58,370 bases of DNA, taken from positions 1-58,370 of the forward strand of contig WGMA01000008.1 of the NCBI GenBank assembly GCA_016125285.1, in the 5' to 3' direction. Positions within the stretch are counted from its first letter, which is position 1. Every line of letters begins with the position of its first letter. Source of the DNA: Phycisphaera sp. GTDB lineage: Bacteria > Planctomycetota > Phycisphaerae > Phycisphaerales > Zrk34. Made by a program: the position numbers and the translations under genes. The notes under the pieces are model-generated. The model was not told the DNA's origin. It saw only the letters and a program-made list of their open reading frames with translations, and did not search any database. Below are positions 18,388 to 53,900 of the stretch, one piece after another.

Positions 18388-19731
18388 CTACCTGGGCGCG
18401 TCGACGCCGTCGATCACGCGGAACCGGATCGTCATCGCCTCGCCCGCACTGCCCTTCGCCTGCGGGTCGGCGTACGGTGTGATCGTCAGCGTGTGGGCCC
18501 CGACGCTCGGCCGCCACGCCTTGTAGTCACCGTCGATGTCGCCCGCGAGCGAGTAGATCGGCACGTTCTCGACCTGGCGCAGCGCGTTGTCGTCGAGCTT
18601 GAACCGCACCGATCCGACTCCGCCAACGACCTCGGCGCGGATGTTGAGGCTTCGACCGACACGCGACAGGTCGATCACGTCGTTGTCGCGCACGGGGCGG
18701 ATGTCGCGGTTGGCTGTCGCGTCGACGAGCACGAGGCGATCGACACGCGGCGGGATCGGCAACACATCGAGCGTCACACCCGTCGAGGCGACCGCGTAGT
18801 GCCCCGCAGCGACCTCGACCGAAGCGCGGTCGGATCGCCGCTCAAACCGCACGCGGCCCTCGGTCACCTCGAGCCGGCTTCCTTCGGTCGACGTCGCGAG
18901 CGTCAGGCGCGTGCCCAGCACGGTCGCCACGGCGCCGGGTGTTTCCATCGCGAAGGGTGCGTCGGCTGGCTGCTTCGCCACATCGCCCGTGATGCGACCG
19001 CGTTCGAGCCACACGCGCTTGCCCGCCGCGGTGTCGCTGAGCACGACGACGGAGCCGCTCTCGGCGCCGAGCGACGTGCCGTCGGCGTAACGCCACGCCG
19101 CCCGGGCATCGGAGCCGCACGTGAGCCGATCACCGCTGTGCAGCGACATGCCGGTGTCCGGCGTGACTTCGCGATCGCCGCGATGGATCGTCACGTCGCC
19201 GTCGAACTGTGTCAGCGTGGCGATGCTCGCCGCAGAGGGATCGGCCGGCGTGCCGTCGCCCGAGTTGTCGACGATCGTCGGACTCGGCGCCGTGTTGACG
19301 TGCGCGATCAGCCATGCGCCGATCGCCACGATCGTGACCGCCGCCGCCAGCCCGATCCAGCCGCCGACGCTCGACCGGCGACGCCTCAGCGCGGGATGTC
19401 GTTGTTGCCTCGCCCTGCCGCCGGTGGCGCGCGGCCCGGGCGATGTCTGCGACGCCAACGCGTCCAGCTCGTCGTCCTCGCGCCGCCACTGCTCGACAAA
19501 GCGGTCACCGTCGTTCTCTGCGCGAAGCCGCTCGACCAGGCTCCGCCGAAACACCTCGCCGTCCGCCTCCGCCTCGTGTCGATGCAGCAGGCGCATCGTC
19601 TCTAACTCACGCCGCGCCTCGACGAGTATCCGCTTGTCGCTCAGCGCGTTGAGCAGACGCTCCGTATCGACATCATCGAGCGTGCCGTCGGCGTAACGGT
19701 CCAGCAGCATGTGCAGCTCGTCGCGCGTCAC
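18388..19731 (-). CDS. FecR-type transmembrane regulator (anti-sigma partner of the ECF sigma)
   Basis: A 447-residue inner-membrane protein. The N-terminal cytoplasmic helices (about 1-100, TRDELHMLLDRYADGTLDD) resemble anti-sigma regions of planctomycete FecR proteins. One TM helix (about 118-142) and a periplasmic FecR domain (about 165-310: GMSLHSGDRLTCGSDARAA, METPGAVATVLGTRLTL) follow. The last 115 or so residues are an Ig-like module (LVLVDATANRDIRPV to AMTIRFRVIDG), also present three times in the secreted protein at 20467-24423. The GTG at 19731 overlaps the sigma gene's stop (GTGA), with AAGGGGG upstream, so it is translationally coupled to the sigma factor it presumably controls. 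Confidence 0.85.
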   Translation of the reverse strand: MTRDELHMLLDRYADGTLDDVDTERLLNALSDKRILVEARRELETMRLLHRHEAEADGEVFRRSLVERLRAENDGDRFVEQWRREDDELDALASQTSPGPRATGGRARQQRHPALRRRRSSVGGWIGLAAAVTIVAIGAWLIAHVNTAPSPTIVDNSGDGTPADPSAASIATLTQFDGDVTIHRGDREVTPDTGMSLHSGDRLTCGSDARAAWRYADGTSLGAESGSVVVLSDTAAGKRVWLERGRITGDVAKQPADAPFAMETPGAVATVLGTRLTLATSTEGSRLEVTEGRVRFERRSDRASVEVAAGHYAVASTGVTLDVLPIPPRVDRLVLVDATANRDIRPVRDNDVIDLSRVGRSLNIRAEVVGGVGSVRFKLDDNALRQVENVPIYSLAGDIDGDYKAWRPSVGAHTLTITPYADPQAKGSAGEAMTIRFRVIDGVDAPR

Positions 19732-20303
19732 GTCAGGCCCCCTTCTATGCGGGCGTCGCGGTCCCGCAGGAGCCGCTGCTCGATGCACGACCGCAGCGAT
19801 CCTCGCAAGCGCGACAGCGCCATCGCCACCGACGCCGGCGTGCGCTCGACCTGCAGAGCGATCTCATCGATCGACATGCCGCGTGCGTAGCGCAGGCGGA
19901 CCAGCGAACGGTTTCGTGTCGGCAGGTCGTCCATGCAGCGACGCAGCGCCGACAGGTGCTCGTCGGATTCGTCGGATTGCGGTTTGGCATCGAGCATGAT
20001 CGCGTCGAGTTGCACAACGACCGACGAGACCCGCGACTTACGGTCACGCAGGAAGCGGTAGACCCGGTTGCGACAGATCGTGCGGATCCATGGGCCGAAC
20101 GGCCGGTCGACCTCGAAACGGTCGAGCGCGGCGAAGGCGTCGACGAACACGTCCTGCACGACGTCGAACACGTCCTCGGGCGAGACGATGAACCGGGCCG
20201 CGTATCCGCGCAGCGACGCCTGATACCGCAGCACGACCTCGCCGAACGCCTCGTGGTCGCCCCGCCGCGCCCGCTCCAGTAGTGCCCGCTCCGAGTCACT
20301 CAT
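19728..20303 (-). CDS. ECF-type RNA polymerase sigma factor (Rhodopirellula type)
   Basis: A 191-residue alternative sigma factor. Region 2 lies near residues 20-90 (FGEVVLRYQASLRGYA, DVVQDVFVDAFAALDRFEVDRPFGPWIRTICRNR) and region 4 near 120-180 (LPTRNRSLVRLRYARGMSIDEIALQVERTPASVAMALSRLR, a helix-turn-helix). It is expected to bind RNA polymerase and be held by the FecR-type protein downstream. The ATG at 20303 follows GAGG; an upstream in-frame ATG at 20321 is less likely because it overlaps the -10 box. The family resembles the Rhodopirellula/Verrucomicrobium sigma group. Confidence 0.92.
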   Translation of the reverse strand: MSDSERALLERARRGDHEAFGEVVLRYQASLRGYAARFIVSPEDVFDVVQDVFVDAFAALDRFEVDRPFGPWIRTICRNRVYRFLRDRKSRVSSVVVQLDAIMLDAKPQSDESDEHLSALRRCMDDLPTRNRSLVRLRYARGMSIDEIALQVERTPASVAMALSRLRGSLRSCIEQRLLRDRDARIEGGLT

Positions 20304-20319
20304 GCGATGCCTCACCACC

Positions 20320-20349
20320 ATTATCTACGCGCCAGACGACCGAACGTAA
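20320..20349 (-). promoter_or_regulatory. Possible promoter for the sigma/FecR operon (TTACGT-N18-GATAAT)
   Basis: On the minus strand, TTACGT (20349-20344) and GATAAT (20325-20320) are 18 bases apart. Transcription would begin about ten bases before the sigma factor's ATG, giving a very short leader. Confidence 0.4.
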
Positions 20350-20466: not shown

Positions 20467-23400
20467 TCAGGGCTTGAGCGTCAGGTCCAAACGCGGCGGG
20501 CTCGCGGCCTTGTTCGAACCGAACCACACGTCCTCGGAACTCGGGCCCTCGTCCATCGTGACGATGAACGTGTAGTCGCCGTCGCCGTGGATCGCGCTGG
20601 ACACGTCGAAGCTCAGCACGGAGCCGATGAGCATCGTGCCGATCTGCGTGTTGATCAGCGTGGTGGGCTCGGGGGCGTTGGCGGCGGTGAGCGTCGACTC
20701 GGTCCAGTTGCTGTGGCTGCCGAGGTGGACGTGGAACGTTCCACTGCCCTCGTCACCCGTCGTCGTGAGGTTCAGCAGCGCCAGCAGCGTGTCACGACCC
20801 GCCGACCCGGTGACCTTGACCTTGAGATAGGCGACACGCTGAACGGACGCGCTGTGCTCGACCTTGAGATAGTCGTTGTCGAAACGGGTGCCGTTTTCCA
20901 GGTACGCGTCGTCGGTGACCGCAACGGTCAGCGGCGCGACGGGCGTGTCGACGACGGTGAAGCTTACCGTCAGCGCATCGCCCGCGTTCCCGCCCGCGCG
21001 GTTGGCGTCGTACGGCGTGGCGGCCAGCGTGTGCGAACCGACGCTCGGTGTCCAGGCGTTGTAGTCGCTGCCGCTGTTGCCCGCGAGGGCGTATACCGGC
21101 ACGTTCTCGGTCTGGAAGTTGCTGTTGCCGTCGAGCGCGAAGCGGACCGACTCGACCGGGCCGACCGCCTCGGCGCGAACGCTGAGGTTGCGGCCATCCA
21201 CCGCGAGGTTGATCACGTCACCGCCCGTCAACTCACGCAGATCCGCGTCGGTGTCGGCGTTGACCAATACAAACTTCGTCACGGCGAACGTCGGCGCCGG
21301 CGCCTCGTCGATCACGTTGAAGGTGACGGTCAGCGCGTCACCGGCCTTGCCCGACGCCTTGTCGGCGTCGTACGGCGTGCCGGTCAGCGTGTGCTGGCCC
21401 AGCGTCGGCGTCCACGCGTTGTAGTCACCGCTGGTGTCGCCCCTGATCGCGTACGGCTCGATGTTCTCCGTCTGATAGTTCGACACGCCGTCGTAGGCGA
21501 ACCGCACGGACTCGGCCGGGCCGACCGTCTCGGCGCGGACCGACAGACTCGTGCCGACGACCCGCAGGTTGATCGTGTCACCGTCGTGCAGTTCGCCGAT
21601 GTCAGCATCCGTATCGGCGTTGACCAGCACGAAGCGCACCACCGCGAGCGTCGGAGTCGGCGGCGCGTTGATCGTGATGCTGACCGTGTCCTCACCGGTC
21701 AGCCCGTCGTTGTCCGTCGCGACGACGCGTAGCGCGTACGTGCCTGCGGAGAGGTTGGAAAGATCCCACGAATACCCGCTCGTGCGCACGCCGGCCGAGG
21801 CGCCGTTGACGAAGAGTTCAACCTGCGTGACCGTCCCGTCCGAGTCCGCGGCCGAGACGTCGACCGTGATGTTCGCCGGGGCGTCGAAGGCGTCACCACC
21901 GCTCGGCGCGACGAACACGACCGTCGGTGGCACGAGCGGAACCTGATCGACCACATTGAAGTGGATCGTCAGGGCGGCGCCCGCGTCGCCCTTGGCGCTG
22001 TCGGCGGTGAACGGCGTGCCGGTCAGCACGTGCGCGCCGAGCGTCGGCGTCCACGGCTTGTAGTCGCCGTTGGTGTCACCCTTCAGCGCGTAGGGTTCGA
22101 CGCTTTCGGTCTGGAAGTTGGACGCGCCGTCGTAGGCGAAGCGTACCGACTCCGCCGGACCGACCGTCTCGGCGCGGACAGACAGGCTCGTGCCGACCTC
22201 GCGGAGGTTGATCGTGTCACCGTCGTGCAGTTCGCGGAGGTCGGCGTCGGTGTCGGCGTTGACCAGCACGAAGCGCACCACAGCCAACGTGACCGGGTTC
22301 GTGTCGTTGACAGTGACGGTGATCGTGTGCTGACCGGTCAGGCCGTCGTTGTCGGTCGCGACGGCACGGAGCGTGTACAGGCCGGGCGTCAGGCTGGACA
22401 GGTCCCACGCGTAACCGCTCGTGCGGACGCCCACCGAGACACCGTTGACGAACAGCTCGACCTGCGTGACCGTTCCGTCGACGTCGGCCGCGGTGGCGTT
22501 GACCGTGAAGCTCGCCGGCGCGTCGAACGCATCGCCGGGGTTGGGATCGATGATTACGACGGACGGTGCTTCGAGCGGCGTGTCGGTCGTACGGGTCACG
22601 AGGACCGCCCAGTCGGCGTTCGTGTTGTTGGGCGCGAGGCCGAGGTTTACCGGGGCGCCGCCCTGCACCGTGGCGACCGTGCCCTGCTGCAACGCCCCGC
22701 CGTTGCGCGGATCGAACCACTCGACCTTGAACGTGCCCGCAACGCCTGTGAGATCAAGTTGCTTGTCGCCGCCGTTCTTGAGGTACACCACGTAAGCCTC
22801 GCCCGGCTTGTACATGCAGTACGCGTCGGTGGCGTTCACCTTCGTGTCGTCCGGCGTCATCTCCCAGAACGGCACGCCGTTGTCATTGAAGAACTGCATC
22901 GCGTACCGACAGTAGTCCCACCAGTTGTCGCGGCTGCGGAAGTCCTGCAGCGTCAGGTCCGATTCGGCGTGGGCGTACCCGAAGTACCACTCGTTGCCCC
23001 AGCCGCCGGCCATGAACGTGCCCCAAACACCGTTCTTCCGGCCGTCCTCGTGCGAGTTGCCCGCGTCGTTGTCGGGCCGCAACGCATGACTCGCGTCGCC
23101 CGGCTCGTCGCACGCCACCGCCCAGATCTTGCCCGCCGCGGCCGAGCGGTCCAGGTAGTTCTTCACCTGGCCGTGCACCCGGCTGAAGTCCGCCTGGTTC
23201 GTCTGCAGCGAGAATCCGGTGAGCTTCGAACCGGGCCCGAGCAGGTCGTAGTGGTTCGAGCCGTTGTGGATGACGATGTGATGGTGATACGGATCGGTGT
23301 CGTAGAAGTACTGCGCCCACGCCTTCTTCTGCGCGGTGATCGCGTCGTTGATCTCTTCGCCGAGGTTCCAGTTCAACGCCGGGTGATGCGCGAAGCGGGC

Positions 23401-24423
23401 GATCAACTCGCGGTAGTACAGCTTGCGCTGCGTGCCGAGATTGCCGCCGTCGAGCAGCAGTTCGTTCTCGGTCTCCTGCGTCTTGAAGTGCAGGAACATG
23501 CCCATGCGTGCGCCGTGCTCAAAGACGATCTCCCACTGATCGAGGCGCGAGACGTCGAGGCGGACGCGCTCGTTGTAGTCGAGGTAAGGGAACACATTAC
23601 GGTCATCGCCGCCGATGTTCATCGTGAGAAACGAGAACACGTTGAGCCCCTCGGACGCGAGGTAGTTGATCGCGCCGATCAGACCCTTGCCCTTGCCGCC
23701 GGCCCACGTCGGGTCGCCCGGCCGCCAGTCCTGCACGTGCGGGCTCCACGTCTTGATCAGGTTGTCCTTGACGCCATCGGTCTTGAACGGCCCGTCAAAG
23801 TCCGCGTAGGCGAGCAGATTCTCCGGCGCGTCGGCGCCCTGCTTGAGCATGTACTCACCGGTGCCGGCGAACCGGAGGTAGCGTTTGCCGACGTAATCGA
23901 GTCGCCCTCGGGCACGCAGGTCCGGGGCGGACTTGTCGGTCGGCGCGATGTTGACGCTGCCGGACTGCCCGTCGAAGAACCCCGCGGAGGATCCACCACC
24001 GTTCGCCGCGACGTTGCCGCCCTGCTTGAACGACGCGGACCAGGTCCACGCGCCGATCCGGTCGGGCGCGAAGTGCACGCGCCACTTGTTGCCGGACGAC
24101 GCGCCGGTGTTCGCCGCGTCACCGTCCGCGGCGTAGTAGCCGGGCACGATGTACGTGGTCCCGTCCGCGTGCGCAAACGTCACGTCGAGGCGGTAGTCGA
24201 GGAACGGGTTGGGTGTAGCGGTCTCGGAGGTGGCGGGTCCGTCGAACGTGAGCGTGACGGTGTGCCACTGCTTCAGTTCGTCGGAGACGGACGCGGCGGA
24301 AGCCGCTCCGGCAGCGACGATGAGCACGGTTATCGCTGCGACGATCGCGACGGTTGGAACGACGGTGGGACAGACGCGGAACGTGCGGCATCGGCGCAAC
24401 GACAGCGTGCGATGGGCGGGCAT
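20467..24423 (-). CDS. Large secreted glycosidase-like protein (DUF5060, TIM barrel, Ig and CBM modules)
   Basis: A 1318-residue exported protein. In order: signal peptide (about 1-43); DUF5060-type beta domain (about 48-140); a glycosidase-like TIM barrel (about 165-520) with acidic candidates in LNWNLGEEIND near 354 and VACDEPGD near 437; a collagen-binding-2-like domain (about 545-610, EAYVVYLKNGGDKQLDL); two Big_7-type Ig domains (A1 about 620-705, A2 about 830-920); three copies of a module starting FVLVNADTDAD (B1 about 714, B2 about 926, B3 about 1047); and a DNRLRE/CBM96-like C-terminal domain (about 1167-1318). The module order is A1-B1-A2-B2-B3. AAGGAGG precedes the ATG. It probably attacks or binds a polysaccharide. 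The B module also forms the periplasmic tip of the FecR regulator next door. Confidence 0.85.
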   Translation of the reverse strand: MPAHRTLSLRRCRTFRVCPTVVPTVAIVAAITVLIVAAGAASAASVSDELKQWHTVTLTFDGPATSETATPNPFLDYRLDVTFAHADGTTYIVPGYYAADGDAANTGASSGNKWRVHFAPDRIGAWTWSASFKQGGNVAANGGGSSAGFFDGQSGSVNIAPTDKSAPDLRARGRLDYVGKRYLRFAGTGEYMLKQGADAPENLLAYADFDGPFKTDGVKDNLIKTWSPHVQDWRPGDPTWAGGKGKGLIGAINYLASEGLNVFSFLTMNIGGDDRNVFPYLDYNERVRLDVSRLDQWEIVFEHGARMGMFLHFKTQETENELLLDGGNLGTQRKLYYRELIARFAHHPALNWNLGEEINDAITAQKKAWAQYFYDTDPYHHHIVIHNGSNHYDLLGPGSKLTGFSLQTNQADFSRVHGQVKNYLDRSAAAGKIWAVACDEPGDASHALRPDNDAGNSHEDGRKNGVWGTFMAGGWGNEWYFGYAHAESDLTLQDFRSRDNWWDYCRYAMQFFNDNGVPFWEMTPDDTKVNATDAYCMYKPGEAYVVYLKNGGDKQLDLTGVAGTFKVEWFDPRNGGALQQGTVATVQGGAPVNLGLAPNNTNADWAVLVTRTTDTPLEAPSVVIIDPNPGDAFDAPASFTVNATAADVDGTVTQVELFVNGVSVGVRTSGYAWDLSSLTPGLYTLRAVATDNDGLTGQHTITVTVNDTNPVTLAVVRFVLVNADTDADLRELHDGDTINLREVGTSLSVRAETVGPAESVRFAYDGASNFQTESVEPYALKGDTNGDYKPWTPTLGAHVLTGTPFTADSAKGDAGAALTIHFNVVDQVPLVPPTVVFVAPSGGDAFDAPANITVDVSAADSDGTVTQVELFVNGASAGVRTSGYSWDLSNLSAGTYALRVVATDNDGLTGEDTVSITINAPPTPTLAVVRFVLVNADTDADIGELHDGDTINLRVVGTSLSVRAETVGPAESVRFAYDGVSNYQTENIEPYAIRGDTSGDYNAWTPTLGQHTLTGTPYDADKASGKAGDALTVTFNVIDEAPAPTFAVTKFVLVNADTDADLRELTGGDVINLAVDGRNLSVRAEAVGPVESVRFALDGNSNFQTENVPVYALAGNSGSDYNAWTPSVGSHTLAATPYDANRAGGNAGDALTVSFTVVDTPVAPLTVAVTDDAYLENGTRFDNDYLKVEHSASVQRVAYLKVKVTGSAGRDTLLALLNLTTTGDEGSGTFHVHLGSHSNWTESTLTAANAPEPTTLINTQIGTMLIGSVLSFDVSSAIHGDGDYTFIVTMDEGPSSEDVWFGSNKAASPPRLDLTLKP

Positions 24424-24602: not shown

Positions 24603-25037
24603 CTACGCGCTGGTCATCGTCGCGGCGGCGTCCTTCATGGTCGTCGCCAGGACGTTGTACGTCGCGGCCCACGCGCTTTCGACCTCTTCGGTGAACGCGT
24701 CGCCGAGCCCCTTACCGAGCGTCCACAGCAGCGCGGAGCCGACCGTGTCGTAATGCGAATCCTCAACCTTGTACGTCGCGTGACGCCGGCCGAGGTCCTG
24801 CACCGACGGCACGAGCGTGTCGAGGTTTCTCAGGCTCGCCACGGCCACGCCGATCATCCGCATCAGCTTCTTCTTCTGATCGGCCATCTCTTCGGGAAAC
24901 AACTCCCGGAGCGACGGGTCGAGCTCGAACAGTTTGTCGTAGAACAGATCCGCGGCGGTGTCGGCGATGGGCACGACTTTGGCCCACGAAGCCTGCACGA
25001 GGTTGATCTGGGTAGCGGTCAATGGTCCGTCTGACAT
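24603..25037 (-). CDS. Single-domain globin
   Basis: A 144-residue heme globin of the full-length (non-truncated) bacterial type. F47 fits the CD1 phenylalanine (RELFPEE), Q54 the distal E7 position and H86 the proximal F8 histidine (LGRRHATYKV). The tail WAATYNVLATTMKDAA is the H helix. Globins of this type bind O2 or NO; roles in NO detoxification, oxygen supply or sensing are known in relatives. GAGGAG stands before the ATG. It is the last gene of a four-gene minus-strand redox cluster, 49 bp behind the DUF3365 lipoprotein gene, which favours a role linked to that electron chain. No reductase domain is fused. Confidence 0.92.
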   Translation of the reverse strand: MSDGPLTATQINLVQASWAKVVPIADTAADLFYDKLFELDPSLRELFPEEMADQKKKLMRMIGVAVASLRNLDTLVPSVQDLGRRHATYKVEDSHYDTVGSALLWTLGKGLGDAFTEEVESAWAATYNVLATTMKDAAATMTSA

Positions 25038-25086
25038 GATGCTCTCCTCACAGGTTATTGAGTGCTAAACGCGGTCATTTCGGCGA

Positions 25087-25752
25087 TCAGTTGATGGGGA
25101 TGCGGATGACGATGCCGCCCATGACGTCGCCGAGCTTGAAGTCGGTCTTCGGCGAGTCGGGGTGCATGTTGTGGCAGTCGACGCACGCGGCGGCGACGCC
25201 CTTGTCGGCGTACAGCGCGGTGAAGTACTTCTTGCCGGCGATCTCCTCTTCGCCGTAGAACGGCTTCTCGCCGTTGGTGTCGAGGATGAACTTGAGGCCG
25301 GCCTTCTCGACGTCGCTGCGCGGCGCGTGCTGCTTGTTGATCGGCCACTCGGACAGCAGCTGATAATCGAAAAGGCCGTTGGCCTTCTCACGCGCCAGCT
25401 CCGCGCCCATGCGGAACATCTGCGCGGGCAGCGGCAGCGAGCCGTGCTCGTTCTCCCACTCTTCGCTGGCCTTGAGCGGGCGGATCTTCTTGGTCTCGGG
25501 GTCCTCGATCATCACCTTCTGCTCCTTGACGAAGCGATTGACGACCTTCTTGACGTAGGTGGTTCGATCGGCGGCCATGACGATGTGGAGCATGTCGGCG
25601 ACCTTCTCGGGCTCGATGCCTCCCGCGGCGGGCGCGGCGGTCTCCGTCGCCGCGGCGACGGCGGGCGTGTCGGACTTGCCGCAGCCGGTGACGGCCGTGA
25701 GGGTGATGACTCCGAGTGCGAACACGGTGCTGGTAACGATGAAGCGTTTCAC
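25087..25752 (-). CDS. DUF3365 (Tll0287-like) c-heme lipoprotein
   Basis: A 221-residue periplasmic lipoprotein with a lipobox ending VTGC near residue 24, an Ala-rich linker and then a DUF3365/Tll0287-like domain. One c-type heme site, C190-V-D-C-H194, lies near the C-terminus, where this family carries it. Members have a PAS-like fold and are proposed redox or ligand sensors. The GTG start at 25752 has AAAGGA seven or eight bases upstream. It sits 35 bp behind the multiheme cytochrome gene, so it may receive electrons from that cytochrome or report on its state. Confidence 0.85.
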   Translation of the reverse strand: MKRFIVTSTVFALGVITLTAVTGCGKSDTPAVAAATETAAPAAGGIEPEKVADMLHIVMAADRTTYVKKVVNRFVKEQKVMIEDPETKKIRPLKASEEWENEHGSLPLPAQMFRMGAELAREKANGLFDYQLLSEWPINKQHAPRSDVEKAGLKFILDTNGEKPFYGEEEIAGKKYFTALYADKGVAAACVDCHNMHPDSPKTDFKLGDVMGGIVIRIPIN

Positions 25753-25787
25753 GACGGGTTCCTTTTCAAAAGGGAGGGTGGTGGTGA

Positions 25788-27194
25788 TCAGTTCTGCGTC
25801 GGCTTTCTGCCGGCGCGTTTGCGTTCGATTTCGGCGAGCTTCGCGCGGATCATGTCGAGGCTGTCGACCTTGACCGCGGAGACGCCCTTGAAGTTGGCGC
25901 CGATGAGCGACGGGTCGGCCAGCGCCTCGATCGCGAACTCGACGCCGTGGCACCGGATGCACACGTTGTGCAGCATCTTTTCGTTGGGGCGCAGGTTGTC
26001 GTTCTGGTTGTGCTGGACCGTGACGGTCTCGACGCCGTCGGCGCGGTGAGTCTCGCGTGGCATATGGCAGGTGGCGCAGGACACGCCGCTGCCCGCGGGC
26101 GCCTTGCCGGCCACTTCGTCGCGCCACAGCTTCGCGTGGGGCGACGCGGCGTAGGAGCGGGTGTGACCGTCGTCGTGACACTGGACGCAGGCGTCCATCG
26201 CCGCGAACCGCGTGTCGAACTCGTGATCGTTGTGGCACGACACGCAGCTCAGTTCGCGGTGCGCCGCCTCGGCGTGCATCGGCAGACGCGCCATGCCGGG
26301 CGTCATCGGGCTCAAGCCCTGAGCCAGCCGCATGCCGTGCCGCCCGCCGAGGAAGCCAGCGACCTCGCCCTCGTGACACCGCTTGCAGCTCTCGTGCGTA
26401 GGCTTGTCGACCCACTTGCCGGTCGTCAGCGACGCGTCGCTTGGGTCGCGGTGACAGTCGGTGCAGTTCACGCCGGCGCGGGCGTGAGCGGTTTCGACCC
26501 ACGCCCGCGTCAGCGCCGAGTCGACCACCACAGATCGTGGTGCATCCTGATCGACCTCCGTCAGCGGCTTGGCGGGGCTGCCGGCGTCCGGGTGATTCGT
26601 TCGCCACGCGCTGCGCGCGGGCACGATCATGGTTTCGAGGCTGTCGGGGTCGTTGAGGTGCGCGGTGAGGAACGGCTCGTTGAGCCCGCGGTTGTCGTGG
26701 AAGTTGTGACAACCCGCGGTCGCGCAGGTCTGGAAGCTCAGCCCGGCGTGCGACGGCCGTTCGGTCTGGATGGTCTCGTGGCAGTGGGCGCAGTAGTCGA
26801 GCGGCATGGTCACGCCCATCGGCCGGGTCATCGTGGGTCGATGCTCGACGTGGCAGGTGACGCAGTGCAACGCGTCGAGCCGCTCGACCAGGTGGACCTT
26901 GTCCAGCGGCTTAAACTTCTTGGCCGGATGCGAGTCGGCGGCGGCCTCGAGCTCGGCGCCGTGACACTGGATGCACGCGTCCTGCCTGACGCCCTCGCCG
27001 GCGGTGTGGCAGACGTTGCACTTGATCTCGATCTGGTAGTGACCGTCGGTGGTCTGCCCGGGGATGAACGCGGTGCGGTCGATCATCGGGCCGCGGGCCT
27101 CGCTGCCTTCGTTCCGCATCAGATTGGTCAGGTACGCAACCATGAGCAACGATCCCACCAGCCAGCCGATCCACACGAGTGCTTTTTTCTTCAT
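25788..27194 (-). CDS. Membrane-anchored multiheme cytochrome c (11 predicted hemes)
   Basis: A 468-residue protein with an uncleaved N-terminal anchor (about 7-24, VWIGWLVGSLLMVAYLTNL) and a periplasmic body rich in heme sites. In order I read CNVCH (C59), CIQCH, CVTCH, CAHCH, CATAGCH (a CX4CH site), CTDCH, CKRCH, CVSCH, CVQCH, CATCH and CIRCH: ten CXXCH and one CX4CH. A short Lys/Arg-rich tail ends it. It matches no well-known nitrite reductase or NapC layout that I can assign, so it is called only an electron-transfer multiheme protein. The ATG is five bases past the stop of the membrane oxidoreductase gene with no clear ribosome site, indicating translational coupling to it. Confidence 0.88.
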   Translation of the reverse strand: MKKKALVWIGWLVGSLLMVAYLTNLMRNEGSEARGPMIDRTAFIPGQTTDGHYQIEIKCNVCHTAGEGVRQDACIQCHGAELEAAADSHPAKKFKPLDKVHLVERLDALHCVTCHVEHRPTMTRPMGVTMPLDYCAHCHETIQTERPSHAGLSFQTCATAGCHNFHDNRGLNEPFLTAHLNDPDSLETMIVPARSAWRTNHPDAGSPAKPLTEVDQDAPRSVVVDSALTRAWVETAHARAGVNCTDCHRDPSDASLTTGKWVDKPTHESCKRCHEGEVAGFLGGRHGMRLAQGLSPMTPGMARLPMHAEAAHRELSCVSCHNDHEFDTRFAAMDACVQCHDDGHTRSYAASPHAKLWRDEVAGKAPAGSGVSCATCHMPRETHRADGVETVTVQHNQNDNLRPNEKMLHNVCIRCHGVEFAIEALADPSLIGANFKGVSAVKVDSLDMIRAKLAEIERKRAGRKPTQN

Positions 27195-27199
27195 GAGGT

Positions 27200-29263
27200 T
27201 TAGAAGTAGTAGGCCGCGGCGATGTGGAACCCGAGCAGGACGGGCAGCGGCCAGAACAGCAGGATGTGGGCCCACGTCAGCACCGGGCGCCACCGTCGGG
27301 CCATCACCGCCATGCGTCCGCCGCCGTTGGCTTCGAGCGCGGTGATCACGCCGGCAGCAGCGCCGGCGAGGCTGAGTCCGAGGAAGATGGCCATCAGAGC
27401 AAAGTTGAGATTGGCTCCCATACGGAAGCCGGTGTGCGCGATGAGGATCAGCAGCGTGATGACGCCGAGCACCGCGTGCACGACACGCCACCAGCCGAAC
27501 TTGCCGAGCTTGAGCCACTTGATGCGCTTGCGCAGCGACAGCGACAGGCCGATCACCGCGACGCCCAGCAGCGAGAATCCGCTGACCTGCTTCCAGAACC
27601 CGTCACGCCAGATCACGTCGATCTGATGCCACGTGGACTGCACCGAATCGGCGAACGGGATCGGCGAGATCGCCCACATCGACGCCAGCAGCACGATGAA
27701 CGCCGCGACGATCGACGCCACGAGCAGCGGCTTCCAGCCCCGCCCGGCGGTTGTCTTCACGTCGGCGCCGACGAACTCGGCGAGCAGCGGCCCGCACGAC
27801 CCGCACATCGTCGATGCGCGGGTGCACGTGGCGAGCTGCTCAACGGTGCGACACCCGCCGACCACTTGGCCGCGCAGCTGCCCCACCGTTACCTGCATGC
27901 AGTTGCAGACCACGGTCGACTCCGGCCACTGCGTCGGCGACAACGCGATGTCACCCGGCCACAACGACCCCGTGCCCTCAAACTGCAACAGCAGCTTCGA
28001 CTTGAACCGCGTGCCGCGATCGATCGCGACGCGCAGCTGTCCGATCTCGTCCCACTGGCCGACCACCACGGCGCCAACGATGCGACGGTCGCGGATGACC
28101 AGCTCGCGGCGTGCGCCGTCGCCGCTCCACACGAGCTTCTCGCCGTCGCCGCGGTACGCACCGAACACCGCGACGTCGACCCCCATCAGCTTGAGCCGCG
28201 TCGACAGATCGGCGCGCTCGAAGGTCGCACGCGGTCGTCGACGCGTGAGGTTGTCGGCCAGCGTGTCGGCCATGGCCAGGCCCGGCGCGACCAGGCCGTA
28301 GGTCCGGCCGCGGTGCACCGCGCACTCGCCCACGGCGAAGACGTTGGGGTCCGACGTGACCATTCGGTCGTCGACCATGATGCCCGCGACGCCCGTGTCG
28401 CACTTGATGCCCGCCAGGCGAGCCAGTTCGTCGCGGGCGCGGATGCCCGCGGAGATCACGACCATGTCGACGGTCAGCCGATCGCCGCCCTCGAACTCGA
28501 GCACGCGGCGGTCGCCGTCGGCGAGCACACGCTGCGTGCGTCGGCCCGCGTGGATGTGCACGCCCAGCTTGCCGATGTGATCGGTCAGCACCGCGGCGCA
28601 CGGCTCGCTGAGCTGCTGCGGCATCAGCCACCGCGCCAATTCGATCACGTGCGTCGTCATGCCCATGTCCTTCAGCGCCTTGGCCGCCTCGAGCCCGAGC
28701 AGCCCGCCACCGATCACCGCCGCGACGCGCCGCCCCTCGCGGTACTCGGCGATCGACCTGAGGTCATCGATGGTGCGATAGACGAACACGCCCTTGAGCG
28801 TGATGCCCGGGATGGGCGGCACGAACGGCGCCGACCCGGTCGCGAAGACAAGACGATCGTAAGATACCTCGCGCCCAGCGGCCGATCGCACGATACGTCG
28901 CTCGCGGTCGATGTCGACAACCGGATCGCCGAGATGAGTCTCGATGCCATGGCGGGCGTACCAGTCGCGCGGGGCGAGCTCGAGGTATTCGTCGTCACAC
29001 TTGTCGAACCACTTCGTCAGGTTCACGCGGTCGTACGCCGGGCGGTTCTCCTCGCCGAACACGATCACGCGGTTCTTCTTCAGCGCCTTGCGCTCGACCA
29101 GTTCCGAGCAGAGCCGATGCCCCACCATGCCGTTGCCGATCACCACGATCGTCCGCTGCGCCTTGCCGGTGGCGGTTTCCCGTACGCCGGCGGATGACGC
29201 ACCCGCGCCCGCGATCTCCTTCACGGGCAGCGGCTGCGTCAGTGATGGACTGGTCTTGAACAC
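27200..29263 (-). CDS. NAD(P)H-FAD-[2Fe-2S] oxidoreductase fused to a diheme-b membrane domain
   Basis: A 687-residue fusion. About 40-360 is a NirB-like pyridine-nucleotide oxidoreductase (IVVIGNGMVGHRL for FAD, VAAVIGGGLLGLEAAKAL for NAD(P)H, VFAVGECAVH). About 450-500 is a BFD-type [2Fe-2S] domain (VVCNCMQ and CGSC). The rest is five TM helices. Helix 3 carries H596-x13-H610 and helix 5 H666-x13-H680: two HX13H pairs, the layout that binds two b hemes across a membrane in NADPH-oxidase and ferric-reductase proteins. Electrons could pass from cytoplasmic NAD(P)H to the periplasm. The sulfite/nitrite-reductase siroheme domains of NirB are absent. GTG 29263 is chosen because AAGGG lies 15-19 bases upstream; GTG 29275 would leave only a couple of bases. 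First gene of the redox cluster. Confidence 0.88.
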   Translation of the reverse strand: MFKTSPSLTQPLPVKEIAGAGASSAGVRETATGKAQRTIVVIGNGMVGHRLCSELVERKALKKNRVIVFGEENRPAYDRVNLTKWFDKCDDEYLELAPRDWYARHGIETHLGDPVVDIDRERRIVRSAAGREVSYDRLVFATGSAPFVPPIPGITLKGVFVYRTIDDLRSIAEYREGRRVAAVIGGGLLGLEAAKALKDMGMTTHVIELARWLMPQQLSEPCAAVLTDHIGKLGVHIHAGRRTQRVLADGDRRVLEFEGGDRLTVDMVVISAGIRARDELARLAGIKCDTGVAGIMVDDRMVTSDPNVFAVGECAVHRGRTYGLVAPGLAMADTLADNLTRRRPRATFERADLSTRLKLMGVDVAVFGAYRGDGEKLVWSGDGARRELVIRDRRIVGAVVVGQWDEIGQLRVAIDRGTRFKSKLLLQFEGTGSLWPGDIALSPTQWPESTVVCNCMQVTVGQLRGQVVGGCRTVEQLATCTRASTMCGSCGPLLAEFVGADVKTTAGRGWKPLLVASIVAAFIVLLASMWAISPIPFADSVQSTWHQIDVIWRDGFWKQVSGFSLLGVAVIGLSLSLRKRIKWLKLGKFGWWRVVHAVLGVITLLILIAHTGFRMGANLNFALMAIFLGLSLAGAAAGVITALEANGGGRMAVMARRWRPVLTWAHILLFWPLPVLLGFHIAAAYYF

Positions 29264-29275
29264 TTCTGGGATCAC

Positions 29276-44979: not shown

Positions 44980-47900
44980 TTAGATCAGGTCGATGCGGTC
45001 GTTCTTGGCGGTCCTCATCAGGTCGAGCGACTCGGCGAGCACCCAGTTCAGGCCGCCACCGGTCTTGAACAGGTCGACGTCCTCGTCGCCGTGCACGGTG
45101 TCGCCGAGGCCGAGTCGCAGGCTGTTGCCCGGCCCGACGCCGGCCATGAGGTTCGAGATCCGCTGCTCAAAGGAAGCGCCCGGATCGGCCCAAGCGTCGA
45201 GCAACGAGAGCAGCGCGTCGGCGTTGTCGTCGTAGTCGGTCGTGCCGGGGATGAGCAGCGTATCCACCTTGTTGCCGCCGATGCGGTCGGCGCCGTCGCC
45301 GCCGATGAAGATGTTCCGCGATGCGCCGCCGCCGATCAGGTCGACGCCGTCACCGCCCACGATGACGTTGTTGCCCAGCCCGGCCGCGATGCGGTCGTCG
45401 CCGGACCCGCCGAGGACAACGCTCCGACCCAGCACGCTCTTGATGCCGTCGTTGCCGCCCTCGCCGAAGATGCGTGCCTCGCCGACGGTGGTGACGCCGA
45501 TGCGGTCGTCGCCATCGCCGCCGTAGACGGTGACCGGGATGTTGACGTTGCCGAGCTTGACGCCGATCGCGTCGTTGCCCTCCTGGCCGTAGATCACCAC
45601 GCTGGTGACGTCGGTCAGGTCGAACACCGAGATCGACCGCCGCACGACCGGTGACGACAACTGGACCACGATGGTGTTGTTCCGCAGCTTGAGGCCGACG
45701 CCGATCCGGTCGTCGTACTCGCTGCCGCCCACCACGAGCGTCTGGCCACCCTCGCCGTCGGGCTGGATGAACGCCTCGACAACGTCGAGCATCTGCGTCG
45801 CGACGCCCGACGAGCCGTCGTCATCCGTCACCGTCAGCTCGACCATCAGCTGGTCGTTCATGATCGGCGTGAAGGTCAGCGTGTCGCCGGTGCCGGTCGC
45901 GATCACCGAGCCGAGTTCCGACAGCACACGCCACGAGAACGTGTGCGTGTCGAGCGTGCCGACGTCCGCGAACGAAGCGGTGAAGGTGACCTCCTGCCCG
46001 CGGACGGCCACGGTCGGCCCGTCGATGAACGCCTCCGGCACGACGTTGTTGATCGTCACCGATGTCGATCCCGTAACCGACTCGGTGTCGTCGTCCGTCA
46101 CCGTCACCGTGATCGGCACGACGTCGGACTCCGTGAGGCTCACGTCGTCGTCGAGGTAACGGTGCGGCACGGTGAAGTTCCGCACGGCCACCGCGAGGTC
46201 GAGCGTCTCGATCGTGCCGTCGCCCCAGTCGATCGTCACCATGTGCGTGTCGAGCGTGCCGGCGTTCGTGAAGCTGCCCGCGAGCGTCACGTAGTCGTTC
46301 TCATCGATGACCGCCGGCGTGACCAGCAGCGACAGGTTCATCGGGTCGGCGTTCTGCACCGTCACCGACGTCGAAGCCGTGTCGACCGCGCCGTCCTTGT
46401 CGGTCACGGTCAGGTCGACGTTGTACGAATCCTGCGCCGTGCCGGTCGGGTTGTCGTCGGCGTACACGTGGCCGGCGGCGAAGCTGACCTCGCCCGCCGC
46501 GAGATCGATCGTGTCGACCGTGCCGTCACCCCAGTCGATGACCAGCTCGTGCGTGTCGGTGACGCCGGGGTCGGCGACCGTGCCCGACAGCGTGACCGTG
46601 TTGCCCTCGATCACCGGAGACGGATCGAACGCGAGGTTGCCGATCGTCGGCGCGACGTTGTTGACGACCAGGTCGAAGGTGACGGTATCGACGCCGCCGT
46701 TGCCGTCGTCGGCGGTGATCGTCACGGTCTGAGAGTCGCTCGGACCGTCGCCCGCGTTGAACGACCACGACCAGTTGCCGCTGTTGTCCGGGTCCTGCAC
46801 GATCGTGCCGACCGACGCCGAGACGATCACGTCGTCGCTGAGATCGAGGTCATCGAACGTGCCGCCGTTCGTCGCGACCACGCCCTCGTCGACCTCGATC
46901 GAATTGCTGTTGATGGTGAGCTCCGGCTCGTCGTTGACGCCGTTGACGGTGATCGTGACCACCGCCGCGTCCATGCCGCCGTTCCCGTCGCTGACCTCGT
47001 AGCTGAACGTCTGCACGCTCACCTCGCCGGCGGCGAGGAAGTCGAGGTCGCCGTCGGGCGAGTAGGTGAAGCTGCCGTTGGGGTTCAGCGACACCGACCC
47101 GAGCGTCGGCCCGGCGAGCACCGCCGCGGTCAGCGTGTCGCCGTCCACGTCGCTGTCGTTGTCGAGCACGTTGCCTGCGATGTCCGTGTCCTCGTCGGTG
47201 GTGTAGTTGTCGTCGACGGCCACCGGCGAGTCGTTGATCGGGATGACGCTGATGCTGACCGTCGCCGTCGCCGACACGCCGCCGAGATTGTCGGTGACGT
47301 TGTACGTGAAGCTGTCGGGGCCGTTGTAGTCCTGCGCCCCGCGGTAGCTGAACGTGCCGTCGGGGTTGAAGGTGAACGTCGAGGCGTGCGACGGGCCGGA
47401 CACCAGCGTCGCGAACAGCGGCGTGTTGTTCTCGCTGGGGGCGCCGCCGTGGCTGTCGGAGTCGTTCAGCAGGACGGACGCGGCGTTGAGCGTCGTGTCC
47501 TCGTTGATGCTGTAGTTGTCGTTCGCAACGTCGGGCACGTCGTTGATCGAGTTGACGGTAACCGTCACGGTGCCGGCGCCGAACCCGCCGTTGCCGTCGC
47601 CGACCGTGTAGGTAAAGGTGTCCGTGCCGTTGAAGTTGAGCGCCGGCGTGTAGGTGATCAGGCCGTTGAGCAGGCTGACCATGCCGCCCTCAGCGCTGTT
47701 GATGCTGACGCCGACGATGGTCAGCACGTCGCCATCGACGTCGATGTCGTTGCCGGAGAACTCCGACGCGGCGATGACGATCGTCGTGTCCTCGTCGGTC
47801 TGCGCCGTGTCGGGCACGCCGATCGGGTCGTCGTTGATCGGGTTGACCGTGATGGTGACCGTAGCGGGCGCCGAGATGCCGCCGAGCGTATCGACGGCGC

Positions 47901-50900
47901 GGTAGGTAAAGGTGTCGACGCCGTTGAAGTCCGCCGCGGGCGTGTAGGTGAACGTGCCATCGGCGCCGAGCACAAAGGCCGAGGCGTGCGACGGGCCGCT
48001 GTTGAGCGACGCGATCATCGGGTTGTTGTTCTCGTTGGGCGCCCCGCCGTGAGCGTCGGAGTCGTTCGCCAGCACGGTCGTCGCCACGAGCGTGTTGTCC
48101 TCGTTGACGTTGTACACGTCGTCGAACACGACCGGCACGTCGTTGACCGACACGACGTTGATCGTGACGACCGCCGTGTCGGACGCGCCGTTGCCGTCCT
48201 CGATCGTGTAGGTGAACGAGTCGGGGCCGTTGTAGTCGGCCGCGGGCGTATAGGTGATCACGCCGTTGATCAGGTCGACCGTGCCGCCCTGCAGCGACAC
48301 CGCGTCGACGGCGGAAACGTACACGAGGTCGCCGTCGACGTCCGTATCGTTGAACAACACCACGGCCGTCGAGACGGTCAGCGTGGTGTCCTCCACTGCG
48401 CCGAGCGCGTCGTCCACGGCGACCGGCGCGTCATTGACCGCGTTGACGGTGATCGACACCGTCGCGGTCGACGACACGGCGCCGAGGCTGTCCTGCACGC
48501 GGTACGTGAAGCTGTCCGGGCCGTTGTAGTTCGCCGCCGGCGTGTAGGTGAACGTGCCGTCGGCGTTGAGCACGAACGCACCGGCGTGCGCCGGCGCGGT
48601 CTCGAGCAGGACCGTAAGCGGCAGGTTGTTTTCGCTCGGCGCCCCGCCGTGCACGTCGGAGTCGTTGGCCAGCACCGACGAGCCGTTGAGCGTCGTGTCC
48701 TCGTTGGTCGAGTAGACGTCGTTGGTCGCGACCGGCGCGTCGTTGATCGAGTTGACGAGCACGGTGACCGTCTCGATGTCGCTGCCGCCGTGGCCGTCGC
48801 TGATCGTGTAGGTGAACGTGTCGGTGCCGTTGAAGTTCGTCGCGGGCGTGTAGGTGACAATGCCGCTGTTGAGCACGACCGTGCCCGCCTGCGCCGTGAC
48901 GCCCGAGACGCTCACGACGCTCAGCACGTCGCCGTCCACGTCGACGTCGTTGAGCAGCAGCGACGAGGCCGTGAAGCTGACCGGCGTGTCCTCGTTCGTG
49001 ATGTACGCGTCGGGCGCGGCCACCGGGGCGTCGTTGATCGGGTTGACCGTGATCGTCACCGTCACGGTGTTCGACACGCCGCCGAGGCTGTCGACCGCGT
49101 GGTAAGTGAAGCTGGTCGAGCCGAAGAAGTCCATCGCCGGCGTGTAGCTGAACGTGCCGTCCGCGTTGAACGTGAACGCCGAGGCGTTCGCCGGGCCGGA
49201 GTCCAGCACGGCCGTCAGCGGCGTGTTGTTCTCGCTCGGCGCCGAGGCGTGCGAGTCGGAGTCGTTGGTCAGCACCGACGAGCCGTTGAGCGTCGTGTCC
49301 TCGTTGACCGAGTACGTGTCGGCGAACGCGATCGGCGCGTCGTTGACCGAATTGACGTTGATCGTGACCGTCGCGATGTCAGCGGCGCCGTGGCCGTCGT
49401 CGATCATGTAGGTGAACGTGTCGACGCCGTTGAAGTTCGCCGCGGGCGTGTAGGTGATGACGCCGACTCCCACCGTGATCACGCCGCCGTTGGCGCTGGC
49501 GCCGCTGATGCCCGAGACGTTCAGCGTGTCGCCGTCCGGGTCGGTGTCGTTGGCCAGCAGCGCCGAGAGCGCGAAGATCACCGGCGTGTCTTCGTTGGTG
49601 GTCGTCACGTCGTCGCCGGCGATCGGCGTATCGTTGACGGGGTTGACGGTGATGCTGACCGTCGCGACGCTCGACACGCCGCCCAACGCGTCGGTGACCT
49701 GGTACGTGAAGCTGTCCGACCCGAAGTAGTTCGCCGTCGGCGTGTAGACGAAGGTGCCGTCGTTGTTGAGGATGAACACCTGCGCGTGGCTCGGGCCGGT
49801 CACGATGGCCGGCGTCAGCGGCGTGTTGTTCTCGCTCGGCGCCCCGCCGTGCGCGTCGTTGTCATTCAGCAGGATCGAGTACGCGTTGAGCGTGTTGTCC
49901 TCGTCGATCGTGTAGGCGTCGTTGGTGACGATCGGCACGTCGTTGACGGAGATGACGTTGATCGACACCGTGCCGATGTCCGTGCCGCCGTTGCCGTCAG
50001 AGATCGTGTAGGTGAACGTGTCGACGCCGTTGAAGTTCGGCGCCGGCGTGTAGGTGACGATGCCGGCGTTGAGCACGACCGTGCCGCCCTGCGAACCGAC
50101 GCCGTCGATCGCCGACAGCGTGATCGGGTCGCCGTCGGCGTCGGTGTCGTTGACCAGCAGCGAAGCGACGGTGAAGCTGATCGGCGTGTCCTCGTTGGTC
50201 GCCTGCAGATCGTCGACCGCGATCGGCGCGTCGTTGTTCGCGTTGACGACGATCGTCACCGTCGCCGTGGCCGACATCCCGCCCAGGCTGTCGTCGACCC
50301 GGTACGTGAACGTGTCGACGCCGGCGAAGTTCAGCACCGGCGTGTACGTGAACGTGCCGTCGGCGTTGAACGTGAAGGACTGCGCATTGCTCGGCGGCGT
50401 CAGCAGCACCGGCGTCAGCGGCGTGTTGTTCTCGCTGGGCGCGCTGCCGTGCGAGTCCGAATCGTTCAGCAGCACCGAGATGCCGTTAAGCGTCGTGTCC
50501 TCCGCGACGTTGTAGAAGTCGTCCGCGACCACCGGCACGTCGTTGATCGAGTTGACCGTCACCGTCACCGTCGCGGCGTTCGATCCGCCGTTGCCGTCGC
50601 TGACGACGTAGGTGAACGTCTCGACGCCGTTGAAGTCCTGCGCCGGGCTGTACGTCACGATGCCGTTGAGCAGGCTGATCGTGCCGCCCTGCGAGCCGTT
50701 CGCGCTGAGGGCGATGAGCGTCAGCGCGTCGCCGTCGCCGTCGGTGTCGTTCGCCAGCAGCGACGCCAGCGTGACGCTGATCGGCGTGTCCTCGTTCGTC
50801 GACAGGAAGTCGTCGCCCGGCATCGGCACGTCGTTGAGCGGGTTGACGGTGATCGTCACCGTCGCGGTGTTGGAGATCCCGCCGAGGCTGTCGACCGTCT

Positions 50901-53900
50901 CGTAGGTGAACGTGTCGGCGCCGTTGAAATTGAGGATCGGCACGTAGGTAAAGGTGCCGTCGGCGTTGAATGTGAACGACTGGGCGTTCGCCGGACCGGC
51001 CACGAGCTGCGCGGTCAGCGGCGTGTTGTCCTCGCTGGGCGCCCCGCCGTGCGCATCCGAATCGTTGACCAGCACGGTCGAGCCGTTGAGCGTGTCGTCC
51101 TCGTTCATCGTGTACGTGTCGTTCTGAGCGACGGGCGGATCGTTGACCGAGACGACGGTAATCGTCACCGTGGCCGTGTCCACACCGCCGTTGCCGTCGT
51201 CGACGACGTACGTGAACGTGTCCACGCCGTTGTAATCCGCGGAGGGCGTATACGTGATGATGCCACTCGACAGCGCCACCGTGCCACCCGCCGCGCTGGT
51301 CGGATCGACGCTGGCGACAACCAGAAGGTCGCCATCGACGTCTGTATCGTTCCCAACCAGAACGGTCGAGTTGAAGACAATCGGCGTGTCCTCGATGGCT
51401 GTCAACGAGTCGTCACCGGCGACCGGATCGTCGTTGACCGGATTGACCGTGATCGTCACCGTCACCGTGTCATCGCCGCCGTCGCTGTCACGAACCACAT
51501 AGTCAAAGCTGTCTGTGCCGAAGAAATCCATCGGCGGCGTGTAGGTGAACAGGTTGCCGGAACGCGAAATCGTGCCGCCGTGCAGACTCGTCGTCGCAAA
51601 GTTGGGAATAGCGAACGAACCAGGCTCCGTATCCGTGTCGTTCGCTGTCAGGTCGAAGAGCGAAATGGTCAACGGCGTGTCTTCGTTCGTCGTATAAGCG
51701 TCGTCGCCTCCCACCGGCAGGTCGTTCACACTCAGCACCGTCACCGTCACGGTCGCTGTGTCGATGCCGCCATGACCGTCGCTGATCGTGTACGTGAACG
51801 AGTCCGTTCCGTTGAAGTCAGCGAAGGGCGTGTAGAGGATGTTGCCGTTGGCCAGGTTCAGCGTGCCGCCCTGCGCGCTGGGCGACGAGACGTTCACGAT
51901 CGTCAGGGTGTCGAGGTCGACGTCGGTGTCGTTGGCCAGCAGTGTCGCGGCGCTGATCGACAGCGGTGTGTCCTCCGGCGTCGCCACCGCGTCGTCGTTC
52001 GCCACCGGCAGGTCATTGACCGACGCGACCGTCACGGTCACCGTCGCCGTGTCGACGCCGCCGGCGCCGTCGCTGATGTCGTAGGTGAACACGTCGGTGC
52101 CGAAGAAGTTCAGCGGCGGCGTGTACGTCACAACGCCCAGGTTCAGCGTGACCGTGCCGCCCTGGAGGCTCGGCGTGCTCACGCCGGTCACCGTCAACGG
52201 GTCACCGTCGACGTCCGAGTCGTTCGCCAGCAGGGTCCCCGCGGCGATATTCAGCGGGGTGTCTTCATTCGTCGACGCCGTGTCGTCCTGCGCCACCGGG
52301 TCGTCGTTGACCGAGTTGACCGTCACGACCACGGTCGCCGTTGCCGTGCCACCGTTGCCGTCGCTGATCGTGTAGCTGAACGCGTCGGAGCCGTTGAAAT
52401 TCAGCGGTGGGGTATACGTGATCGTGCTGCCGGACAGCAGGATCGTGCCGCCCTGCGAGCTGAACGCGTCGGTCGCGATTACCGTCAGCGCGTCGCCGTC
52501 GATGTCCGTGTCGTTCGCCGTCAGGTCCGACGACGGGAACGCCAGCGGCACGTCCTCGTCGGTCACCACCGCGTCGTCGACCGCCACCGGGTCGTCGTTG
52601 ACGGGGCGGACCGACACGGTGACCGTGCCGGTGTCCGTGCCGCCGTTGCCGTCGCTGATGTCGTAAGTGAAGGTATCGGTGCCGTTGAAGTCCGCCGGCG
52701 GGGTGTAGGTGATCACGCCGCCGGACCGCCCCACCGTGCCGCCCATCGCGCTCATCGCGCTCACGCCCGTGATCGTCAGCGTGTCGCCGTCCACGTCCGT
52801 GTCGTTGGCAAGCAGCGCCGACTCGGCGATATCGACCGGCGTGTCCTCGTTCGTCGCCACCGCGTCGGGATTCGCCACCGGAGCGTCGTTGGCCGGCAGC
52901 ACCGTCACGGTGACCGTCGCCGTGTCCGTCAGCGTGCCGTCGGTGATCGTGTAGGTGAACGTGTCGGTGCCGAAGAAGTCCGCCGCGGGCGTGTAGGTCA
53001 CGTTGCCGCCGCCCAGCACGACCGTGCCGCCGTTCGCGCTGACCGGGCTGACCACCAGGATCGACAGCATGTCCATGTCCACGTCGAAGTCATTAACCAG
53101 CAGGTCCGTATCGGCGATGACCAGCGGCGTGTCCTCATCAGTCAACACCGCGTCGTCCGTCGCCACCGGAGCGTCGTTGACCGCGATGACCGTGATCGTC
53201 ACCGTCGCCGGCAAGGATGTGGCTGTGCCGTCACTGACCGTGTAGGTGAACGTGTCGACGCCGTTGAAGTCGGCCAGGGGTACGTACGTCACCACGCCGC
53301 CCGCAAACGACACCGAACCGCCCATCGCGCTGGTGCTGTCCACGTTGTCGATGACGAGCGTGTCGCCATCGATGTCCATATCGTTGGCCAGCAGGACCGA
53401 GCCCGCGAGGTTCAGCGGCGTATCCTCGTTCGTCACGGACGCGTCGTCGACCGCGATCGGGTCGTCGTTGACCGGGTTGACCGTCACCGTCACCACCGCG
53501 GTGTCGAAGCCGCCGTTGCCGTCAGAGACCACGTACGTGAACGAGTCCGTGCCGTTGAAGTCCGCCGGGGGCGTGTAAGTTACATCCACGCCGGCGTTGA
53601 GCACCACCGTGCCGCCCTGCGCGCTGTTCGGGCTTACCGACGAGATGGAAAGCGTGTCGCCCTCGGCATCCGTGTCATTCGAAAGCAGCGTCGCCTCGGC
53701 GATATTGACCGGCGTGTCTTCGTCAGTGGTCGCCACGTCGTCACCCGCGACCGGCGGATCGTTGATCGGATCGACCGTGATCAACACCGTCGCCACCGCG
53801 GAGATGCCGCCGAGGCTGTCGACCACTCGATACGTAAACGCGTCGGGGCCGTTGTAATTCAACGCCGGCGTGTAGCTGAACGTGCCGTCGGCGTTGAGCG

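Follow-up and report, generated by a model that had tools for sequence, protein, structure and literature searches.

A cluster of four redox genes in the window (the entire 58,370-nt stretch of planctomycete DNA that was analyzed) raises the question of which electrons it carries, where it delivers them, and for what purpose. The original prediction proposed a new trans-membrane wire from cytoplasmic NAD(P)H to a periplasmic multiheme cytochrome and left its end acceptor and purpose open. An electron wire is well supported by the sequence evidence described below, given that the gene neighbors are conserved and the membrane flavoprotein corresponds to no known enzyme, and the neighborhoods in related genomes point to nitrate assimilation as the setting in which it may operate.

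Gene content and predicted cofactor sites

The gene content, conservation, ligand residues, and neighborhood of the cluster can be read directly from the sequences. The four co-directional open reading frames are separated by gaps of 5, 35, and 49 bp, as described earlier, and the Pfam domains or heme motifs of each product agree with the cofactor family that had been assigned to it (Table 1). The window gave no matches in Rfam and tRNA scans, and a crude scan located no ANTAR-type leader 5′ of the fusion gene.

Table 1. Positions of the four genes and of the fused membrane domain in the window.
Feature	Position	Strand	Characteristics
Fusion gene	27200..29275	(-)	NirB-type FAD/NADH oxidoreductase + BFD-like [2Fe-2S] + 5-TM diheme b domain
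Diheme b membrane domain of fusion	27203..27748	(-)	Four invariant His, spacing 14 in each pair
Membrane-anchored 11-heme cytochrome c	25788..27194	(-)	10 CXXCH + 1 CX4CH; N-terminal TM helix
Tll0287-like (DUF3365, sCache_heme) one-heme lipoprotein	25087..25752	(-)	PF11845 E 7e-18; lipobox + CXXCH
Single-domain globin, Hell's Gate globin I type	24603..25037	(-)	PF00042; closest PDB match 3s1i

The fusion protein comprises a FAD/NADH oxidoreductase (residues 42-430), a BFD-like [2Fe-2S] domain (455-500), and the five-helix diheme b domain (510-691). Pfam recognized Pyr_redox_2 (E 6e-52), a Rubredoxin_C-type domain, and Fer2_BFD (E 9e-7), and the ∼180 C-terminal residues past the BFD-like domain were claimed by no Pfam family. 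The GTG start at 29275 is uncertain because residues 1-38 are not conserved. Among 25 fusion orthologs the [2Fe-2S] cysteines (C457, C459, C491, and C494) are invariant, and Glu212, located just past the second GxGxxG motif, is 96% conserved. We take a glutamate at this position of the NAD site to indicate a preference for NADH, which favors NADH over NADPH as the probable substrate; the domains that had been predicted are thus present, with the cofactor narrowed from NAD(P)H to NADH.

The fusion resembles NirB, the large subunit of the NADH nitrite reductase, in its FAD/NADH domain and BFD [2Fe-2S] half, but the siroheme/[4Fe-4S] half is absent and a diheme b membrane domain is found instead. 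As anticipated, Pfam matched no catalytic nitrite reductase domain (NIR_SIR, PF01077) in the fusion, and the NirB model TIGR02374 aligned through only the first 467 of its 794 positions with a score of 428.6 bits, below the cutoff of 578. The FAD/[2Fe-2S] half is ∼40-47% identical to planctomycete NirB, a similarity close to that shared with distant fusions. All 25 fusions lie on one side of a branch separating them from NirB in a tree (SH-aLRT 99), in line with a single origin of the fusions. One scan of genome contigs for occurrence beyond Planctomycetota, with a single fusion protein as query, gave partial matches only, to the FAD half. The AlphaFold model of the fusion (pLDDT 71) matched only ferredoxin and rubredoxin reductases, for the FAD half.

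Within the membrane domain, four histidines (H600, H614, H670, and H684) are invariant among 25 orthologs and five hydrophobic segments are apparent (518-536, 563-581, 598-616, 626-644, and 671-689). Arg/Lys clusters after the second and fourth segments (RKR 582-584 and R660-663) suggest an N-in/C-out topology with one heme toward each side of the membrane. This arrangement fits an H600/H670 pair on the cytoplasmic side and an H614/H684 pair on the periplasmic side, a pairing that we infer; the AlphaFold prediction of this domain was of low confidence.

The second gene encodes a cytochrome for which 11 heme motifs had been reported. We arrive at the same number, counting the single CX4CH as a heme site because one ortholog (L040) has CXXCH in that column. 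Pfam assigned multiheme families to the protein. All 11 motifs end in CH, and exactly 22 histidines are invariant across 26 cytochromes, 11 of them in the motifs and 11 elsewhere (H52, 89, 118, 149, 166, 237, 286, 324, 344, 353, and 395). With two invariant histidines per heme, all 11 hemes appear to be bis-His-ligated, which suggests a conductor or store of electrons rather than a catalyst. The AlphaFold model of the cytochrome (pLDDT 43) was set aside.

The third protein carries the domain formerly named DUF3365 and a conserved GC lipobox, as well as the one heme motif that had been noted. The lipobox residues (G23-C24) and the C190xxC193H194 motif are invariant in 25 orthologs, and the combination of a PF11845 domain with CXXCH is that of the sCache_heme proteins. 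No cysteine outside the lipobox and the CXXC is invariant, so the cysteine axial ligand of Tll0287 seems not to be kept, and in this respect the lipoprotein differs from Tll0287 while sharing a stand-alone one-heme domain with invariant CXXCH (PMC12889525). A characterized stand-alone DUF3365 protein binds NO weakly, and such proteins have been proposed to act in redox reactions rather than in NO sensing (PMC12889525).

Conservation and the link to nitrate assimilation

The original prediction proposed a search for co-occurrence of the four genes, and among the 26 loci that were read (window included) the fusion, 11-heme cytochrome, and DUF3365 genes are present together in all 26 and the globin gene in 20. 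The six loci without a globin comprise four from one genus, L150, and L156, which reaches a contig end. The gene set is evidently a non-random, conserved module, judged from these sequences. A search of 392 planctomycete genomes with the membrane domain gave six strong matches, the remainder having E values of 7e-8 or weaker, and a cytochrome profile recovered the same six plus one weak outlier. In denser searches the cytochrome was present in 44 of 241 genomes from a single family (f71) and in 4 of 298 genomes sampled from the class of the window; the module is represented in at least two planctomycete classes. The cluster genes occur in altered order in L158 and L159, and a monoheme cytochrome is added in three loci of the window's class (L040, L073, and L168). 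NrfA was considered as a fixed downstream partner and rejected, as two of the genomes (G000 and G057) lack it.

A connection of the module to nitrate assimilation is supported in these relatives. Within f71, the assimilatory nitrate reductase NasA is encoded in 41 of the 44 cluster genomes vs 59 of the 197 others (Fisher p 2.6e-15, a value that ignores shared ancestry), and in 16 of those 41 genomes NasA lies ≤16 kb from the cluster; the 16 represent five genera, with 8 in one genus, and these counts likewise take no account of shared ancestry. Two loci (L169 and L174) display a single co-directional run of 13 genes from the fusion through Nrt-NasA-NirA, in the order fusion, 11-heme cytochrome, DUF3365, globin, NrtA, NrtB, two NrtC/D-type ATPases, GAF, DmsBC, NasA, NirA, and CysJ-like. 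Over the extent available, L170, L172, L173, and L175 repeat this order, except that one or two genes separate globin from NrtA, and in L171 and L176 the cluster adjoins the CysJ end. This linkage is seen in relatives and not in the genome of the window, where the genes for NasA, NirA, and an ANTAR regulator sit on a contig (C12, with the NasA locus) other than that of the cluster (C47), so for this genome the nitrate link is by kinship only.

The module is not required for nitrate use, since 59 of the 100 NasA genomes of f71 lack it. Moreover, NasA is partnered by DmsBC-like proteins (a 4Fe-4S protein and a DmsC anchor) and NirA is accompanied by a gene for a CysJ-like flavoprotein; with donor genes of their own, neither enzyme seems to need the wire, which argues for an accessory or side need. 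The idea that the cluster supplies a missing nitrite reductase was rejected because NIR_SIR proteins are encoded in all six genomes first identified. Taken as a pattern of gene neighborhoods, the module looks like an accessory, and an optional one, to nitrate assimilation in planctomycetes.

Proposed electron path and competing readings

We judge it somewhat probable that the module is an NADH-fed inner-membrane wire to the 11-heme cytochrome, serving as an accessory of nitrate assimilation with a nitrosative or redox side role. From the sequence features we infer the cofactor occupancy, direction of electron flow, order of partners, final acceptor, and physiological role, as follows. NADH would reduce the FAD in the NirB-type domain on the cytoplasmic side, the FAD would reduce the [2Fe-2S] cluster of the fusion, and electrons would then pass to the two b hemes (the cytoplasmic-side H600/H670 heme and the periplasmic-side H614/H684 heme) and on to the anchored periplasmic cytochrome, with the DUF3365 one-heme lipoprotein as the likely next partner. 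The wire would meet a side need of nitrate use, either reductive protection against NO and nitrite or disposal of excess reductant, and the globin, where present, would scavenge NO in the cytoplasm. If this reading is correct, the use of nitrate by these planctomycetes requires reducing power in the periplasm.

The globin provides much of the reasoning about NO. The fourth gene product was confirmed as a globin (Pfam E 2e-16), its best PDB match has an E value of 1.1e-28, and residues Y33, Q54, H86, and F47 are invariant in 20 orthologs. We take these, from knowledge of the family, to occupy positions B10, E7, F8, and CD1, respectively. The Tyr-B10/Gln-E7/His-F8 set occurs in NO-dioxygenating flavohemoglobins, and this globin has the full complement of NO dioxygenase residues (Tyr B10, Gln E7, His F8, and Phe CD1) with no fused reductase. 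In the narK-bjgb-flp-nasC operon of Bradyrhizobium, a globin and a FAD oxidoreductase protect against NO arising from nitrate assimilation (PMC4724949). That operon similarly places a single-domain globin and an NAD(P)H-FAD oxidoreductase in a nitrate assimilation unit (PMC4724949), but it has no membrane domain, multiheme cytochrome, or DUF3365 protein, and its Flp feeds NasC, whereas the planctomycete NasA instead has the DmsBC-like partner. On the basis of the globin residues and the Bradyrhizobium precedent, a nitrosative or redox-balance role is our best guess by analogy, against which stand the redox rather than NO-sensing function proposed for stand-alone DUF3365 proteins and the absence here of the Tll0287 cysteine ligand. 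A more specific version, in which the wire is quinone-independent, arose by exchange of the NirB siroheme half for a diheme b domain, and powers periplasmic NO/nitrite defense or reductant overflow during nitrate assimilation, is possible but doubtful; multiheme cytochromes are not known to have such a role.

The same globin evidence could be read to mean that the cluster is an NO dioxygenase system, with the fusion mainly acting as the NADH reductase of the globin and its membrane part as a mere anchor. Adjacency of the two genes in 20 of 26 loci, the residue set, and the Flp reductase for Bjgb as precedent make the fusion a candidate reductase by neighborhood, but four invariant histidines are superfluous for an anchor. 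Five cluster genomes with a full locus but no globin in it encode no globin anywhere, while the 11-heme cytochrome and DUF3365 genes are never missing; the globin is therefore an add-on to what these genomes indicate is a core of fusion, 11-heme cytochrome, and DUF3365 lipoprotein. These globin-free genomes weaken the pure reductase reading, which we regard as unlikely.

Also unlikely, and involving a more roundabout path, is a wire that feeds NADH electrons to NasA by docking the 11-heme cytochrome on the DmsC-like subunit, thereby bypassing quinol. NrfD/DmsC-type proteins are known partners of multiheme cytochromes in Nrf, Qrc, and alternative complex III. In one genus (g167), four loci carry NasA, together with DmsBC, immediately upstream of the cluster, and the genes form one run in L169 and L174. 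Against this, the wire is missing from most NasA genomes of f71, the two loci are far apart in G348 and G121 as in the window's genome, and electrons would have to leave the cytoplasm only to be brought back in.

We consider it improbable that the 11-heme cytochrome reduces nitrite, NO, or hydroxylamine in the periplasm as an enzyme in its own right. Despite the nitrate neighborhood, its profile similarity to NrfA and octaheme nitrite reductases is weak (best E 9e-8) and spans single heme-binding stretches only; 11 spare histidines for 11 hemes leave, by sequence, no open or Lys-ligated catalytic heme, and all six genomes first identified encode NIR_SIR proteins.

A metal or extracellular end acceptor, which the original prediction had entertained, is highly improbable: the cytochrome gives a weak DmsE/MtrA-type profile match, but the loci examined contain no MtrB-like barrel, second large multiheme gene, or outer-membrane multiheme cytochrome of an MtrCAB system, and the barrel that recurs nearby is an Alginate_exp porin, in most cases encoded on the other strand. 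Reverse flow, with a periplasmic donor reducing the cytochrome and the fusion making NADH, is just as hard to credit, for although redox chains can be reversible and sequence fixes no direction, it would run uphill against the membrane potential and the cluster has no conserved periplasmic donor enzyme.

Relation to known membrane routes

The preferred reading, an NADH-fed wire, belongs with a known plan of cytoplasmic donor, diheme b protein, and multiheme cytochrome c. Known inner-membrane routes to multiheme cytochromes start mostly from the quinol pool and have been studied for metal or nitrogen-oxide respiration. Among them, CbcL, ImcH, and CbcBA of Geobacter take electrons from menaquinol for the respiration of metals, and CbcL joins b and c hemes. 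The planctomycete cluster is like these in that a membrane module would hand electrons to periplasmic multiheme cytochromes (a diheme b module with four histidines lies beside the cytochrome gene in 26 of 26 loci), but the NADH/FAD domain suggests a donor other than menaquinol, with NADH appearing to feed the module through FAD and [2Fe-2S], although quinol may also bind. It thus appears to start from NADH and to be tied to nitrate assimilation, where no multiheme cytochrome is expected. We found no literature description of the operon in a search that left most subscription journals outside its reach, and as far as that literature shows the module is undescribed; with three core genes and one optional, it constitutes a defined, testable set.

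By analogy, the NADPH oxidase/ferric reductase (NOX) family also joins a cytoplasmic pyridine-nucleotide/FAD domain to a diheme b domain with two His pairs, but its FAD domain is of another kind, and the fusion has an extra [2Fe-2S] cluster and a cytochrome gene partner. A single weak Ferric_reduct match (E 0.003) was obtained, in 1 of 6 members.

Distant homologs emerged among the weaker matches to the membrane domain, which are stand-alone proteins, mostly of ∼280 residues, with the same four histidines (hhalign E 4.8e-13). In many loci that were read, their gene is flanked on one side by that for a cNMP-binding/4Fe-4S protein and on the other by that for an anchored multiheme cytochrome. 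Clusters of this type (L115-L120) differ from the fusion cluster in having the cNMP-binding/4Fe-4S protein as input and a different multiheme cytochrome, with no nitrate link seen, but they share the homologous module with its four histidines and its adjoining anchored cytochrome. Because the stand-alone homologs adjoin multiheme cytochromes, the fused membrane domain looks like the same b/c module given a different cytoplasmic input.

NasA partner and adjoining porin

In planctomycetes, the gene for NasA, the assimilatory nitrate reductase, is accompanied by one for a fused DmsB-DmsC-like protein, a pairing that suggests a membrane-bound, quinol-fed enzyme. An Alginate_exp outer-membrane porin gene repeatedly adjoins the cluster or the nitrate operon in related genomes (L163, L170-L172, L175, and L176), on the opposite strand in most cases, and its product is possibly an anion (nitrate) porin.

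Cluster variants and stand-alone diheme b genes

The fusion and DUF3365 genes of genome G590 are split by frame breaks, which reflect either decay or sequencing error. At L073, a CcsA-like gene is present besides the ResB-type gene. Planctomycetes also repeatedly carry clusters (L115-L120 and L049-L072) in which the gene for a stand-alone diheme b protein is grouped with those for a cNMP-binding/4Fe-4S protein and a large anchored multiheme cytochrome; these clusters apparently represent a further inner-membrane wire.

Other genes of the window

The gene for the DUF5060 protein lies immediately downstream of the cluster.

Features in the window and in related loci
Feature	Location	Strand or genome
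ResB-type cytochrome c maturation genes, downstream of the cluster	L073 1890-5014; L168 5282-6481	both g217 genomes
Split fusion and DUF3365 genes	L164 8533-12863	G590
Fused DmsB-DmsC-like protein	L074 14025-15635; L169 10978-12762	
4426-aa protein, ~38 cadherin/Big_9-like repeats	window 44980-58260	(-)
1318-aa protein (domains: DUF5060, Ig-like, CBM96)	window 20467-24423	(-)
ECF sigma factor, then FecR-domain protein	window 18388-20321	(-)
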